From NCBI GenBank assembly GCA_030425505.1, contig JAUIAB010000004.1, positions 62,001-126,000 of the forward strand: a stretch of 64,000 nucleotides of DNA, in the 5' to 3' direction. This document shows, piece after piece, positions 17,798 to 62,000 of the stretch. The translations under genes and the position numbers were made by a program. Numbering within the stretch: position 1 is the stretch's first letter; every line of letters begins with the position of its first letter. This stretch comes from Bacteroidia bacterium. Lineage in GTDB: Bacteria > Bacteroidota > Bacteroidia > Cytophagales > Flammeovirgaceae. The notes beneath the pieces were generated by a model that worked only from the letters and a program-made list of their open reading frames with translations, did no database searches and had not been told where the DNA came from.

Positions 17798-18028
17798 ATG
17801 CTTACCTACACTAAACAGCAACTAGCTTTAAGAAATGGTAGTGACAAAGAAGAAATATGGTTTGCCTACAAGGGTAAAATTTATGATGTTACAAAATCTA
17901 AGCTATGGAGAAATGGGAAACACTATGAGCACTGGGCAGGTCAAGACTTAACTCAAGAACTTGCTGATGCTCCCCATTCTAAAAGAGTAATAGAGAAATT
18001 TAAAGTTGTGGGACAGTTAATTACATGA
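17798..18028 (+). CDS. Cytochrome b5-like heme/steroid-binding domain protein
   Basis: This 76-aa single-domain protein resembles the Cyt-b5 family: LALRNGSDKEEIWFAYKGKIYDVTKSKLWRNGKHYEHWAGQDLT, then ADAPHSKRVIEKFKVVG. The pattern Wx(A)YxGxIYDVT, then GxHYxHxAGxDLT and a second motif with DAPH, fits small bacterial cytochrome b5-like proteins. Candidate heme or ligand histidines are in the HYEHW and APH segments. It has no anchor or signal peptide, so it is probably cytoplasmic. Its stop codon lies within the first bases of repeat A copy 1. Confidence 0.85.
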   Translation: MLTYTKQQLALRNGSDKEEIWFAYKGKIYDVTKSKLWRNGKHYEHWAGQDLTQELADAPHSKRVIEKFKVVGQLIT

Positions 18029-18116
18029 AACAGACATGTCTGATTTAAAATTGAGACACACAGAGGGATGATTAAGCCGTGTGCTAAACAAATTAGGCAA
18101 GTCACAAATTTTAAAC
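18025..18116 (+). repeat. Dispersed intergenic repeat A, copy 1
   Basis: This roughly 92-bp element is shared with 21697-21791 and 61901-61994, both in minus orientation. It contains the palindrome CAGACATGTCTG, then TTTAAAATTGAGACACAC, ATGATTAAG, a GTGTG partner, and GTCACAAATTTTAAAC. CACAC and GTGTG can form a small stem that covaries with CACAT and ATGTG in copy 3. It starts at the stop codon of the preceding gene. Confidence 0.8.
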
Positions 18117-18214: not shown

Positions 18215-19351
18215 ATGGGGTTTTCATTTAAATTAAAACAGAACGATACATTATCTAATGCTAGAACTGGAGAGATCACTACAGATCATGGGAAAATCAA
18301 AACACCCATTTTTATGCCTGTAGGAACTTGCGGAACAGTAAAAGCGGTTCATCAAAGAGAACTAGAAAGTGATATTAAAGCACAAATTATTTTAGGCAAT
18401 ACTTATCACTTATTTCTTAGACCTGGTATTGAGACCTTAGAAAAAGCTGGAGGGCTACATAAGTTTAACGGCTGGCATAAACCTATTTTGACAGATAGTG
18501 GCGGGTATCAGGTTTACTCGCTATCTGCTAAGAGAAAAATATCGGATGAAGGAGTAGAGTTTAGTTCTCATATCGATGGCTCCAAGCACTTTTTCTCCCC
18601 AGAAAAGGCTATTGAAATACAAAGGTGTATTGGAGCAGATATCATTATGGCATTCGATGAGTGCACACCTTATCCCTGTTCTTATGATTATGCTAAAAAT
18701 TCAATGAAGTTAACCCATAACTGGTTGGACAGGTGCTGCAATTACATAGACCAAAACCAAAATAAATATGGTTATTATCAAGCTCTCTTCCCCATTGTTC
18801 AAGGAAGTACTTTTCCTGATCTGAGAAAGCAATCTGCTGATTATATTGCCGAAAAAGAAAGAGATGGTAATGCAATTGGAGGGTTATCTGTTGGAGAACC
18901 TGCTGAAAAACTTTATGAAATGACAGGTTTAGTTTGTAGCCACCTTCCAAAAGAAAAACCAAGATACCTGATGGGAGTTGGCACTCCAGAAAATATACTT
19001 GAGTGCATAGCCCTAGGAGTAGATATGTTTGACTGCGTAATGCCAACAAGAAATGGAAGAAATGGAATGCTATTTACTACTGAAGGAAGTATAAATATCA
19101 AAAATTTAAAATGGAAAGATGATTTCTCCCCTATTGATGCTGGACTAGATAGCTATGTAAGCAATTTTTATTCTAAAGCTTATTTAAGACACCTAATAAC
19201 TTCCAATGAAATTTTAGGCTTACAAATTGCAAGTATTCATAATCTAACATTTTATTTATGGCTTGTGGAATGTGCTAGAAATGAAATTGAAAATGGATCT
19301 TTTGCTTCTTGGAAAGAAAGTATTCTTCCTAAAATTTCTCGAAGACTCTAA
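18215..19351 (+). CDS. tgt: tRNA-guanine(34) transglycosylase
   Basis: Tgt exchanges guanine 34 of GUN anticodons for preQ1 on the way to queuosine. This 378-aa TIM barrel has the family signatures GKIKTPIFMPVGT, LTDSGGYQVYSL and VDMFDCVMPTRNGRNG (catalytic Asp region, about residue 272). The zinc-site segment reads SPIDAGLDSYVSNFYSKAYLRHL. The three Cys ligands of the E. coli type are absent, while the following histidine region is kept. I recall the same loss in other Bacteroidota Tgt proteins. The next queuosine enzyme, QueA, is in the window at 48966-50018. The stop codon forms the start of repeat B copy 2. Confidence 0.97.
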   Translation: MGFSFKLKQNDTLSNARTGEITTDHGKIKTPIFMPVGTCGTVKAVHQRELESDIKAQIILGNTYHLFLRPGIETLEKAGGLHKFNGWHKPILTDSGGYQVYSLSAKRKISDEGVEFSSHIDGSKHFFSPEKAIEIQRCIGADIIMAFDECTPYPCSYDYAKNSMKLTHNWLDRCCNYIDQNQNKYGYYQALFPIVQGSTFPDLRKQSADYIAEKERDGNAIGGLSVGEPAEKLYEMTGLVCSHLPKEKPRYLMGVGTPENILECIALGVDMFDCVMPTRNGRNGMLFTTEGSINIKNLKWKDDFSPIDAGLDSYVSNFYSKAYLRHLITSNEILGLQIASIHNLTFYLWLVECARNEIENGSFASWKESILPKISRRL

Positions 19352-19566
19352 CTCGAATAATTCGGGACTTAATTCAATGGTAACGGATAACTCACTAATT
19401 ACAAAGTAATTGATTTTGCAAGATTTGGGTTAATTGATATCCAAACTTGGAGAATGAAATACCGTGCGGTTCAAAAAAACAAGCATTTGAAAATCAATTA
19501 CTTGATCAAAAACAAACGATCTACTTATGAATAACACAGGCTAACACTATCTTAAATCAATGAAAT
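19349..19566 (+). repeat. Dispersed intergenic repeat B, copy 2
   Basis: This is the homologue of 2102-2325. It begins TAACTCGAATAATTCGGGAC, where TAA is the tgt stop codon. The shared core includes ATTACAAAGTAATT and ends around TATGAATAACACAGGCTAA. It fills most of the 310-bp gap between tgt and the dehydrogenase gene; no ORF was seen in it. Confidence 0.75.
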
Positions 19567-31121: not shown

Positions 31122-31814
31122 ATGAAAATAACAGGACAAGAACTTTATACTAAACTGGTAAATGACTATAAAATAATTGGTGAGAAAGGAGTGATCAATT
31201 TTTCACTCAAAGATTTGACTATTTCTGTTGAAACAAAAGATACTGTAGGAAATTTGCTGCAAGAATGGTTAAAAGCTTGGATGGCAAAAGAAAGTATTGA
31301 CTTTGAGGAAAATACTAACTCACAAACTTTTCCCGACTTCTATCTGGATAGAGAAGATAAAAAAAATGGTCTCTTAGAAGTAAAATCTTTCGACTGGCAA
31401 CGTGGTCCTGGTTTTGATTTGGCTAACTTTGATTCTTACTGCAATTCTCTACTTGAAAACGCGTATAGAATTGATTCCTACTATTTGATTCTAGCCTATC
31501 AAATGGAGGGCAGTCAAATCACTATAAAAAATGTTTGGCTAAAAAGGATTTGGGAGCTTTCATGCTCAAGTAGCACCTATCCAATAAAAGTACAGGAGAA
31601 AAAACAAGTAATATATAACCTCAGACCAGGAACATGGTATTCTGAAAGATCAAAATTTAAGCCTTTTTCAAGCAAAGAAGAATTTCTTTCTGCTCTTAAT
31701 GAAACCCGATACCAATATCCACAGACAAGACATAATAATGGTCATTGGCTAAAGAAAGTTTTAAAGAATTACGAAACACATACAGGCATTTCTTTGAATA
31801 TAAAATCAGTTTGA
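31122..31814 (+). CDS. Type II restriction endonuclease, NgoBV/NlaIV family
   Basis: This 230-aa protein matches the NgoBV endonuclease family as I recall it. It has a PD-(D/E)xK catalytic core: PDFYLD with Asp72, then LLEVKSFDW with Glu86 and Lys88. The family cuts GGNNCC, so that site is predicted by homology only. Its 3' end overlaps by 46 bp the end of the convergent C5 methyltransferase gene. This tail-to-tail arrangement is a complete restriction-modification pair. ftsK lies on one side and the DUF6471 gene on the other. Confidence 0.85.
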   Translation: MKITGQELYTKLVNDYKIIGEKGVINFSLKDLTISVETKDTVGNLLQEWLKAWMAKESIDFEENTNSQTFPDFYLDREDKKNGLLEVKSFDWQRGPGFDLANFDSYCNSLLENAYRIDSYYLILAYQMEGSQITIKNVWLKRIWELSCSSSTYPIKVQEKKQVIYNLRPGTWYSERSKFKPFSSKEEFLSALNETRYQYPQTRHNNGHWLKKVLKNYETHTGISLNIKSV

Positions 31815-33127
31815 TTAGCTAGTGTATTTGCTATTCTACTAGCTACAAACTCAACTACTGGAACTGCAACAGTGTTACCTAATAAATCAAAGGCATCACT
31901 CTCTTTGACTGGTATTTCATACCACTCTGGGTAACCAAACAAACGTAAGCCTTCTCTGATTGTCAGTCTTCTTAAGCCATTTCCATCAGGCACAGCAAGC
32001 CTAGACACATCTGTAGCTACCAAGGTTGGTGCAATATCATTCGGGTCTAAAATCTTGTTAATTTCAAAACTCAGCTTACCAGTAATAATATTGTAACCTT
32101 TAGGTTTTGCCTCATCAAATACGCGGTATGATCTTATACCTTCTATAGCTTTCTCTTTAACTAATTTTTTTGGGTGCTCTAGTTTTAAATAGCCTTTAAC
32201 TACAAGATCGTCTAGCATTCTTTTTAAAATTTCTTTTGGCTGGCTGATGAATGTATTTATTTGTTCTAATGTTAATGGCATTCCATCCATCCAGTCAATT
32301 CCTATTTCAACAGCCCAGTGCTTCTTCCTTCTTTCTTTGAATAGCTTATTCAATAAATGGTATTGCTCCTCAGAAACTTCTCCTTTTAGACTAATGTCCC
32401 AACTATGAATATTATTATCTCCTCCTCTTTTATCTTTAATTGATTTTCCATATAAATCTTTGATATCAAAACGTGACAACAGTTTTCTTGTAAAACTAGA
32501 ATCAAGCACTTTAAGTCCTTTATCTAAAATGCTATCTAAATTGCTAAATTTCTTCTTATTTGCCTCTAAATCAATCTGCTCTCTTTTAGTTCCTACAATA
32601 AAGATTCTTTTCCTAGACTGAGGCAATCCAAACTCAAGCGCATCAAAAACTTTCCAGGTAACTCTATACCCTAAATCTGATTCAAGCGTATGTATTATCG
32701 TAGAAAGCGTTCGACCTATTTTATCACCTTTATTCTCTATATCGTGCTTTACAAGCCCTTCAACATTTTCAAGAATAAAACCATAGGGTTTTTTATTTCT
32801 TAAAATCCTTTCGATTTCAAAAAACAATGTACCTCTAGTATCTAAAAAGCCATGTCTTTTTCCACCTGAACTAAAAGGTTGACATGGAAACCCTCCCAAT
32901 AGAAAGTCAAAATCAGGTATAAACTCATTTCTTATTTCAAAAATATCACCTGCCAAAAAATTGTGTTCAAAATTGTGCTTTAATGCTTTAACTGCATACG
33001 GTTTTATTTCTGAAGTCATTACACATTCAGTCTTAAAGCCAAGGCGATTAAAAGCATTTTCGAAGCCTAATCTAATACCACCAAGGCCTGCAAATAAATC
33101 AATGAATTTGATTTTTTCACTTTCCAT
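31769..33127 (-). CDS. DNA (cytosine-5-)-methyltransferase
   Basis: This 452-aa enzyme methylates C5 of cytosine and protects against the neighbouring endonuclease. Conserved motifs are in order: I FIDLFAGLGGIRLGFE (about 8-23), IV GGFPCQPFSSGG with catalytic Cys82, VI ENVEGL (about 119), VIII QSRKRIFIVG, and X near the C-terminus (ALLGNTV-like DLLGNTVAVPVV). A large target-recognition region lies between VIII and IX. The ATG at 33127 is preferred over an upstream Met; it overlaps the end of the DUF6471 gene by 11 bp, which suggests translational coupling. Confidence 0.95.
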   Translation of the reverse strand: MESEKIKFIDLFAGLGGIRLGFENAFNRLGFKTECVMTSEIKPYAVKALKHNFEHNFLAGDIFEIRNEFIPDFDFLLGGFPCQPFSSGGKRHGFLDTRGTLFFEIERILRNKKPYGFILENVEGLVKHDIENKGDKIGRTLSTIIHTLESDLGYRVTWKVFDALEFGLPQSRKRIFIVGTKREQIDLEANKKKFSNLDSILDKGLKVLDSSFTRKLLSRFDIKDLYGKSIKDKRGGDNNIHSWDISLKGEVSEEQYHLLNKLFKERRKKHWAVEIGIDWMDGMPLTLEQINTFISQPKEILKRMLDDLVVKGYLKLEHPKKLVKEKAIEGIRSYRVFDEAKPKGYNIITGKLSFEINKILDPNDIAPTLVATDVSRLAVPDGNGLRRLTIREGLRLFGYPEWYEIPVKESDAFDLLGNTVAVPVVEFVASRIANTLANQTDFIFKEMPVCVS

Positions 33128-33422
33128 TATTTGATTTCTTATATTCAATATTTGGCTCAGCTGCGATTAAAAAATCAGTATTTATGCTTTCCATTTCTAA
33201 TTTTGAGCAGCCTATTGCTGAAAGACACTGGAGAAAAAAACTTGCACTGAAACTACCTCGACTAATTTTGCTATCAATACTAGCCTTTGTTTCGCATACT
33301 CCAATTTCATTGAGTAGTGTTACTAAGTTGGCATTTGATACCCCTCTTTTTACCAATTCTGACTTTAAGAGTCGTTTAGCTTTATTGTTCCAGTTAGCTA
33401 TCATTGATGTTTTTTTTTGCAA
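33117..33422 (-). CDS. DUF6471 helix-turn-helix-like protein, candidate regulator of the restriction-modification module
   Basis: This 101-aa protein has a helical N-terminal two thirds (KAKRLLKSELVKRGVSNANLVTLLNEIG, then ASIDSKISRGSFSASFFLQCLSAIG). That region has the spacing of an XRE-type helix-turn-helix and matches DUF6471 as I know it. Its stop overlaps the methyltransferase start by 11 bp. Position and fold suggest it controls methyltransferase or endonuclease levels, as C-proteins do in other systems. DNA binding is inferred. Confidence 0.75.
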   Translation of the reverse strand: MQKKTSMIANWNNKAKRLLKSELVKRGVSNANLVTLLNEIGVCETKASIDSKISRGSFSASFFLQCLSAIGCSKLEMESINTDFLIAAEPNIEYKKSNNGK

Positions 33423-33487
33423 TTATGTAAATATTTTATCATATATGAAAATGATTTATTATAAATAAAACTATTATCTTGCTTATA

Positions 33488-33607
33488 GCATGACCTGCAT
33501 CCTAGGCAAAGAGGTGAAAGACAAGACCGACGTGGGTTTTGTGAGGGCAGGCTTGGCTCACCGGGAAGGGCTTGAGGAAGGATGCCCTATTTATTATTGC
33601 TTTTTTG
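33488..33607 (+). ncRNA. Structured RNA candidate, copy 1 (6S-like architecture)
   Basis: GCATCCT (33497-33503) pairs with AGGATGC (33579-33585) to close an 89-nt element. A 9-nt left and 16-nt right internal loop follow, then inner stems GGTGA (33513-33517) with TCACC (33558-33562) and CAAG (33522-33525) with CTTG (33552-33555). A T-rich run, TATTTATTATTGCTTTTTT, comes after. The element is richer in G and C than its surroundings. Its apical part (CGACGTGGG, TTGTG) is shared with 53745-53836. The closing stem, large asymmetric bubble and inner stem resemble a compact 6S RNA, but the family is not verified. Confidence 0.6.
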
Positions 33608-40161: not shown

Positions 40162-40235
40162 GCACGCGTAGTTCAACTGGATAGAATGTCGGATTTCGGC
40201 TCCGAAGGTTGAGGGTTCGAGTCCTTCCGCGTGCA
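40162..40235 (+). tRNA. tRNA-Arg (anticodon TCG)
   Basis: The acceptor arms GCACGCG and CGCGTGC pair in full with discriminator A at 40235. The anticodon stem is TCGGA/TCCGA with loop TTTCGGC, which gives anticodon TCG and so arginine. The T-arm GAGGG-TTCGAGT-CCTTC is canonical. The 3' CCA is not encoded. It lies 23 bp after atpC. Confidence 0.95.
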
Positions 40236-53736: not shown

Positions 53737-53860
53737 GCATGTCTGCACCCTGAGGTAAGAGGCTATGCCAAAGATCGAATGGGCTTGTGGGGTTGTTCTA
53801 GCTTTGGCAGCCGGGACGAGCCTTGCGCAAGGGTGTCCACTTCTATTTATTTTTTGAAAA
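53737..53860 (+). ncRNA. Structured RNA candidate, copy 2 (6S-like architecture)
   Basis: GCACCCT (53745-53751) pairs with AGGGTGT (53830-53836) to close a 92-nt element. Inner stems are GGCT (53761-53764) with AGCC (53809-53812) and GCCAAAG (53767-53773) with CTTTGGC (53802-53808). The internal loop is 9 nt on the left and 17 nt on the right, almost the same as in copy 1. Shared primary sequence includes GGCATG or AGCATG before the stem, TGGG and TTGTG in the apical part, and CTATTTATT after it. It lies in a 413-bp gap with no ORF. Confidence 0.6.
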
Positions 53861-60701: not shown

Positions 60702-61898
60702 TTAATAGGAATCTATCACTCCTGAGCCTATTAGTTCATCCTCAAGATACCACGCTGCAAACTGACCTGGAGTGATTCCTCTCTGCTCTTTTTCAAAAAC
60801 GATATATATGCCTTCTTCTCTTTTGTAGAGGCAAGCTTTTTCTAGCTTCTGTCGGTATCTTATCCTTACGAGAAAGGGTTTTTTATCTCCACTTTCAAGT
60901 TTTAAATCTCCTCTGATCCAATGAATATCTTCTTCTTTGATAAATAAGCCTTTTCTAAATAATCCTGGGTGATTTTCCCCCTGACCTGCATATACTATAT
61001 TTTCCTTAGTATCTGTACCAATAATAAACAGTGGCTCTGGTGTACCTCCGATACCTAGTCCTTTTCGTTGACCAATAGTATAAAAATGAGCTCCTATATG
61101 TTCTCCTTTTTTTATTCCACACGCATTTTGTAGTGAATGGGATTTACACAGTTCTTGTAAATATTCTTCAGCATCAAGATAGTTTTTGGGATCAACTGAC
61201 TTAATGCTGTTGGCAGCAATTTCAAGTACTATCCCTTTTTTTTCTTTTAGCTGTTGTTTTAAAAAGTCAGGTAATCGCACTTTACCTATAAAGCATAACC
61301 CCTGCGAGTCTCTTTTTTCAGCAGTTACAAGGTCTAATGAGGAAGCAATTTCTCTCACTTGATTTTTTTGGTATTCTCCAATTGGAAATAATGCTTTGGA
61401 AAGTTGTTTTTGGTTCAGTTGACACAAAAAATAACTCTGGTCTTTATTTTGATCCTTTCCTGCCAATAATCGGTATTGTTCTACTTTTCCTGAGCTATTT
61501 ACCTTTTCTGATTTTCTACAATAATGACCAGTAGCAACATAGTCTGCTCCCAATTTTAATGCTGCATCTAGGAATAGGTCAAATTTAATTTCTCTATTGC
61601 ATAGTATATCAGGGTTTGGCGTTCTTCCTTTTTCGTACTCGTCAAACATGTAGTCTACTATTCTTTTTTTGTATTGAGCACTTAGATCTATCGTTTGAAA
61701 TGGTATTTGAAGCTTATTTGCTACCATGAGCGCATCGTTGCTATCTTCTACCCAAGGGCAATCTCCTTTTATGGTTACTTCTCCGTCATGCCAGTTTTTC
61801 ATAAATATACCGATGACTTCATATCCTTCTTTTTTTAAAAGGTATGCTGCTATACTTGAGTCTACTCCACCAGAAAGTCCTACTACTACTCTTTTCAT
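60702..61898 (-). CDS. mnmA: tRNA-specific 2-thiouridylase
   Basis: MnmA adds sulfur to U34 of Lys, Glu and Gln tRNAs. This 398-aa protein has the PP-loop motif [15 protein letters not shown], the first catalytic cysteine in [21 protein letters not shown], and the second catalytic cysteine in [10 protein letters not shown]. It is somewhat longer than the roughly 365-aa E. coli enzyme. Its 5' leader is almost entirely repeat A copy 3, which ends 2 bp before the start codon. Confidence 0.96.
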
Positions 61899-61900
61899 CT

Positions 61901-61994
61901 GTTTAAGTTTGTGACCTACCTAGTTTATTTCATACACATCTTAATCATTGCTTTGCATGTGTCTCAATTTTAAATCAGACATGGTCTATTTCAT
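61901..61994 (-). repeat. Dispersed intergenic repeat A, copy 3
   Basis: On the minus strand it reads ATGAAATAGACCATGTCTG, TTTAAAATTGAGACACAT, ATGATTAAG, ATGTGT and GTCACAAACTTAAAC. It forms the mnmA leader and starts 6 bp after the DUF2480 stop. CACAT pairs with ATGTG here, where copy 1 has CACAC with GTGTG. Confidence 0.8.
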
Positions 61995-62000
61995 TGATGA

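Follow-up and report, generated by a model that had tools for sequence, protein, structure and literature searches.

A dispersed family of folded ~95-nt repeats in a Cytophagales genome: candidate mobile elements with an RNA-like fold

What is the compact structured sequence that occurs twice in the 64,000-nt stretch of Cytophagales DNA analysed here (the window)? A preliminary description, made from the letters alone, had read the two occurrences as a paralogous pair of structured RNAs, possibly 6S-like and with different growth-phase roles. We followed both through the source assembly (G000; 2.95 Mb in 41 contigs), through one relative of its family with a complete chromosome of 7.66 Mb (G001), and through wider sets of genomes. 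The element is a previously uncatalogued family, with about 60 folded repeats of ~95 nt in G000. That the two window sequences are copies of a non-autonomous mobile repeat, probably moved as folded single-stranded DNA, is a reading to which we give about an even chance.

Fold of the element and its maintenance

Both copies lie on the forward strand, and their coordinates and pairings, as first described, agree with the sequence base for base. Their parts, in window coordinates, are the following.

33497-33585, + strand: core of element copy 1 (G000:C10:95495-95592 with model flanks); covariance model (CM) 94.5 bits, E 1.4e-22; alignments A3, A4 and A5
33497-33503, + strand: copy 1, P1 5' strand GCATCCT, pairing with 33579-33585; sequence and covariation in 62 copies, four P1 pairs with two-sided changes
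33579-33585, + strand: copy 1, P1 3' strand AGGATGC; sequence and covariation
33513-33516, + strand: copy 1, P2 5' strand GGTG, pairing with CACC at 33559-33562; sequence and covariation
33559-33562, + strand: copy 1, P2 3' strand CACC; sequence and covariation
33519-33525, + strand: copy 1, P3 5' strand AGACAAG, pairing with CTTGGCT at 33552-33558; one A.G mismatch, A.G or G.A in many copies
33552-33558, + strand: copy 1, P3 3' strand CTTGGCT; sequence and covariation
33527, + strand: copy 1, C of the isolated pair, partner G33550; CG in 49 and UA in 13 of 62 copies, no exceptions
33563-33578, + strand: copy 1, conserved 3' internal loop GGGAMGRGC..TTGHGG; site of an extra hairpin in 7 G001 copies
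33478-33493, + strand: copy 1, 5' hairpin, a degenerate version of TCATGC-N-GCATGA; the intact hairpin abuts about a third of copies
33586-33598, + strand: copy 1, 3' tail CCTATTTATTATT; T-tract kept in G000 copies, missing in G001
53745-53836, + strand: core of element copy 2 (G000:C10:115743-115843 with model flanks); CM 103.8 bits, E 3.4e-25
53745-53751, + strand: copy 2, P1 5' strand GCACCCT, pairing with AGGGTGT at 53830-53836
53761-53764, + strand: copy 2, P2 5' strand GGCT, pairing with AGCC at 53809-53812; sequence and covariation
53767-53773, + strand: copy 2, P3 5' strand GCCAAAG, pairing with CTTTGGC at 53802-53808; sequence and covariation
53775, + strand: copy 2, U of the isolated pair, partner A53800; compensatory to C33527-G33550 of copy 1

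The fold consists of three helices, P1 (7 bp), P2 (4 bp) and P3 (7 bp), and of two isolated pairs, all supported by an alignment of 62 copies; on the 5' side, P2 and P3 are separated by a bulge of 2 nt. Its unpaired parts are a 5' internal loop of 9 nt, a 3' internal loop of 16-17 nt with a conserved GGGAYGAGC, and an apical loop beginning ACCGA; in the window copies the left loop measures 9 nt in both and the right one 16 and 17 nt, just as had been noted. The compensatory change originally reported in the closing stem is real: in copy 2, C-G replaces the T-A of copy 1 in the middle of P1, and the G-C at its outer end becomes G-U. The inner stems, which differ and yet pair in both copies, are refined by the family alignment into the 4-bp P2, the 7-bp P3 and the isolated pair beyond it. 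In G001 the closing stem reads GCGCACT/AGTGCGC, again compensated.

Taken singly, the window copies fold no better than their shuffles (z -1.16 for copy 1, -0.07 for copy 2), so that comparative evidence is needed and two copies alone prove little. This evidence upholds a compact conserved fold with genuine compensatory changes. RNAalifold recovers P1-P3 unprompted. In the 62-copy alignment A5, which was fitted to a model already containing the fold, 94.5% of cells are paired, against 26.9-51.1% with the partner slid by 1-3 columns, and the plain MAFFT alignment A3 agrees (95.6%, 11 pairs). A count of covariation in the 62-copy alignment gives two-sided changes in 13 of 20 pairs, with 173 cells changed on both sides versus 45 in shuffles. 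Fitch parsimony on a FastTree phylogeny of A5 counts about 43 double pair-keeping, 32 single pair-keeping and 31 breaking changes, and in the same tree analysis G.U exceeds A.C by 31 to 6, an excess which marks the + strand as the folding strand, be it as RNA or as single-stranded DNA. The fold is maintained across the copies, apparently by selection. A conserved short P4 helix was considered as a further part and is unsupported in short copies, though several G001 copies have real hairpins at its site.

Size, distribution and setting of the family

A DNA search of G000 with each window copy returned many dispersed matches, and a covariance model (R1) built from 27 copies in alignment A3 finds 61 copies there at E<=0.01, with best E-values of 7e-28. 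In G001 the model finds 19 copies and the DNA search 20 matches, two of them truncated. The supposed paralogous pair is thus a sample of about 61 copies in G000 and at least 19 in G001. Among 18 genomes of the family, G001 is the only carrier besides G000, the other 16 having yielded none. A broader model (R2; the 62 copies of A5) matched G000 and G001 alone in 391 genomes of the order, and G000 alone in 395 genomes of the class, a set in which G001 is not listed; as these scans of ~780 genomes scored few candidates per genome, with lower sensitivity, absence elsewhere is provisional. The element occurs at none of 80 miaB loci of other Bacteroidota, and nothing in all of Rfam matches it. Carriage by phages or plasmids was rejected: a blastn search of the window copy against both gave no match, and two pattern matches in viral contigs were due to chance and had no covariance-model score.

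The copies are 68% alike on average, so that, a few pairs at 92% apart, nothing points to recent movement; decayed and truncated copies are present. The G001 copies form a single clade in the tree of A5 (support 0.997), and the genes flanking G000 and G001 copies are not orthologous, a few weak pairs excepted. Each genome therefore appears to have had its own, independent expansion.

Judged by the ORFs called, the copies are intergenic almost without exception; a few appear to lie within frames, some of which are short or antisense. Of the gene contexts in G000, about 21 are tandems in the same direction and 15 tandems in the opposite one, with 19 being divergent and 6 convergent. Copies have a wider gap on their upstream than on their downstream side (medians of 133 and 62 nt; p=4e-4), and other dispersed repeats near copies lie mostly upstream. 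Two further dispersed repeat families have members in the window. The first, of ~110 bp (61881-61995 and 18021-18114), has 43 copies in the ~0.98 Mb of G000 searched, shows no conserved fold and is absent from the G001 sequence fetched; the second, of ~200 bp (2102-2294 and 19349-19539), has 14 copies in ~0.98 Mb and no strong consensus fold. Directly upstream of copy 1, at 31122-33422, are genes for an NgoBV-type restriction endonuclease, a C-5 cytosine methylase and a DUF6471 protein, and a tRNA gene at 40162-40235 is the sole Rfam match above gathering score in the window.

At the element's edges, the hairpin TCATGC-N-GCATGA stands within 2-3 nt upstream of about one third of the G000 copies, and by coordinate matching 17 of its 19 exact sites in G000 are adjacent to a copy, be it sound or decayed. 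The 3' tail reads CCYANTTT in G000, with a T frequency of 0.66-0.82 at positions 5-8, and is CCAAATGAT-like in G001. The flanks of the copies show neither a visible target-site duplication nor a shared target sequence, and there is no gene inside the element. With the joined flanks of each copy as query, no clean empty paralogous site was found, and no polymorphic copy was seen; at miaB, synteny is lost in relatives (21 loci checked), which precludes an empty-site comparison there. One candidate empty site, at locus L098, was discarded because what adjoins the decayed copy there is the end of an insertion sequence. In that copy (L098 398-503) the place of the 5' end is taken by sequence that matches a locus on contig C12 with 96% identity over 206 bp, probably the insertion-sequence end. 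At another locus (L205 430-1488; G001:C1, ~4.30 Mb) two element copies, one truncated and one intact, stand on either side of a DUF4238 gene and share 96 bp as an exact direct repeat, made up of 54 bp of flank and 42 bp of element, as though an insertion or duplication had taken place inside the element.

RNA or moving DNA?

How could such a family have arisen? The element, ~95 nt long or longer with the optional 5' hairpin, folds by its + strand into the three-helix structure with its conserved loops, and an enzyme or other factor would recognise this fold. Were it so recognised, selection would maintain the fold in those copies still able to spread. What we infer is that the repeat moves at all, that it does so as single-stranded DNA, and what enzyme moves it, our leading guess being a transposase of the Y1 (HUH) type.

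The orientation of the copies relative to replication bears on the moving form. In G001, where gene-corrected GC skew sets the origin at about 0/7.5 Mb and the terminus at about 3.4 Mb, the + strand runs in the leading direction in 18 of 20 copies (a duplicate fragment excluded; p=4e-4 if half were expected, p=0.012 if 65% were, as in the gene bias). In G000, with its weak skew, the orientation of 41 of 60 copies matches that of the local skew (p=0.006, or 0.011 by permutation), a bias that fades to 24 of 38 (p=0.14) in the regions of clear skew. The replication-strand bias is thus evident in G001 and weak in G000. As + copies run in the leading direction (positive skew), the folded strand is the lagging-strand template, the strand used by IS608-type elements (PMC6006769). 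Selection on a transcribed RNA could also be the source of this bias, as expressed genes, too, are typically co-oriented with replication.

This leads to the best-surviving alternative, a multicopy functional RNA that is transcribed from its own or neighbouring promoters, acts in trans, for example by binding a protein or a small molecule, and was duplicated by chance recombination. Its conserved unpaired positions and the covarying non-Watson-Crick A.G resemble an RNA with tertiary contacts, the G.U preference is compatible with it, and in G000 a T-tract follows P1. However, the G001 copies have no T-tract, on which ground an intrinsic terminator was rejected, and the Bacteroidota promoter motif is not found upstream and is even depleted, with 6 occurrences of TANNTTTG in 62 x 200 nt; an sRNA gene with a promoter of its own was dismissed for this missing motif. 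The orientation to neighbouring genes is mixed, and sixty unlinked, non-syntenic copies require a dispersal mechanism in any case. We therefore hold a functional RNA to be rather unlikely, albeit a serious contender, and it is the replication bias together with the missing promoter that tilts the balance towards single-stranded DNA.

More doubtful is a cis-acting mRNA element that spread, such as a riboswitch, an attenuator or a 3' UTR stabiliser. The downstream gene is co-directional in 16 of 18 G001 cases and in most G000 cases, as expected for such an element, but it runs oppositely for about a third of the G000 copies, and the neighbours of the copies have no common family or pathway; we consider this improbable. 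Very unlikely, too, is a standalone guide-type RNA, a TnpB reRNA or an IscB/IsrB omega RNA. Omega RNAs are known in standalone multicopy forms, but a TnpB zinc-ribbon gene (PF07282) is absent from both G000 and G001, neither HEARO nor another Rfam family matches, and the 3' flank is partly conserved, unlike a free guide. Slighter still are the prospects of an element borne by reverse transcription, a degenerate group II intron or a retron product: it would account for a structured sequence in many copies, but G000 has no reverse transcriptase gene (RVT_1) and there is no Rfam intron match. As regards current mobility this is strongly disfavoured; reverse transcription may have been involved in the past.

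The 6S reading we regard as almost certainly wrong, even though closing stem, asymmetric bubble and inner stem are all present and give the element the rough outline of 6S-Flavo RNA (RF01685). In the Rfam comparison that had been suggested, 6S-Flavo included, neither copy matched at E<=10 save by chance matches to unrelated families, and the 6S models gave no match at either. The 6S-Flavo model reaches no element copy, its lone weak match in G000 (23.1 bits against a cut-off of 85) lying elsewhere, at C21:341862; it stays below cut-off in five of five genomes tested and rises above it in no relative searched, so that this search has no positive control. Moreover, 6S and 6S-Flavo genes occur in one or two copies with their own promoter, whereas the element has ~61 copies in mixed orientation and no upstream motif; both copy number and genomic context are wrong for 6S. 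With this reading falls the idea that the two window copies serve different growth phases.

Candidate enzymes and comparison with known elements

If the repeat is indeed moved as folded single-stranded DNA, which enzyme might serve it? G000 has exactly one Y1_Tnp gene (C32:30880-31224), with an element copy ~220 nt downstream on the same strand, an adjacency whose chance we estimate at ~2%. Its 142-residue product (L239:9369-9797), with the motifs DHIH, WQ and YIKKQ, resembles Y1 subclass 1.2, the tyrosine motif fitting the signature only partly. That subclass is common in Bacteroidetes and Cyanobacteria and has no IS or REP structures and no known REP (PMC6006769). Y1 genes also occur, however, in family members without the element, those of G001 have no copy near, no element-like structure adjoins those of G001 and the relatives, and other palindromes lie near the G000 gene. 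The lone Y1 gene is thus a weak lead. Between it and the element copy lies a 35-bp direct repeat (L239 9792-9826 and 9965-9999 on G000:C32; 33 of 35 positions identical) enclosing a REP-like palindrome; on its other side, the Y1 gene is preceded by a restriction-modification gene of type IIG.

REP and REPIN sequences offer a close precedent for such a relationship: they are short palindromic intergenic sequences in dozens of copies, folding as single-stranded DNA, and are regarded as non-autonomous, with a Y1 HUH enzyme, TnpA-REP or RAYT, acting in trans to move them (PMC6006769, PMC8266576). The element, too, is short, intergenic and present in many copies, though longer than canonical REPs. 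It differs in having ~95 nt with P1, an inner helix of 4+7 bp and conserved internal loops in place of a hairpin of 20-40 nt, and in ending without a GTAG/CGTC-type tag, which is conserved at neither boundary. Nor is a Y1 gene consistently flanked by copies: the one candidate for a cognate tnpA-REP is the G000 gene with its one downstream copy, and there is none in G001. Elements of the IS200/IS605 group (IS608, ISDra2) and miniature elements derived from them share the folded strand on the lagging-strand template, clearly in G001 and more weakly in G000. Their hairpins, however, sit at each end of a gene, while ours is a single compact structure with no gene and no recognisable cleavage sites; the fixed short target, TnpA gene and subterminal hairpins of that group are not found with it. 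P1 could pass for the 7-bp inverted repeat of a MITE, yet the flanks show no target-site duplication. Integron attC sites, whose end boxes are RYYYAAC and GTTRRRY, were rejected, as the element's ends GCACCCT/AGGGTGC or GCGCACT/AGTGCGC do not fit them.

Among repeats of Bacillus cereus, the bcr1 family is ~155 bp long, structured, transcribed, mobile-looking and present in tens of copies; its host is unrelated to that of the element, and the likeness is one of general description. Another parallel is MRSC-65-2, a multicopy, strongly covarying motif inconsistently oriented to genes, with one long stem, a UYCCGG repeat and more than 20,000 examples, for which the authors leave open whether it acts as RNA or DNA (PMC11109978). 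The element is alike in copy number, covariation and mixed orientation, and unlike in its three-helix fold, known from two genomes. In the sense in which structured motifs are judged there (PMC11109978), its pattern is that of a candidate mobile or repeat sequence. A bolder proposal, which we think unlikely, is that it represents a class of its own among single-stranded mobile elements. In place of a simple terminal hairpin, the transposition signal of this new class would be an elaborate RNA-like fold of three helices, in which the loops are conserved and a non-canonical pair covaries, and it would be served by an orphan Y1 protein of subclass 1.2 or by an unrecognised enzyme.

A riboswitch-like fold kept in ~60 divergent copies is unusual, as most dispersed repeats of bacteria are simple palindromes, and it cautions against taking covariation seen in a genome scan as sufficient proof of a regulatory RNA. 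If the element is an RNA after all, it constitutes a large uncatalogued RNA family. If instead it is moved as folded single-stranded DNA, it would widen the range of structures recognised by HUH or similar enzymes, and may provide Y1 proteins without an assigned substrate with one.
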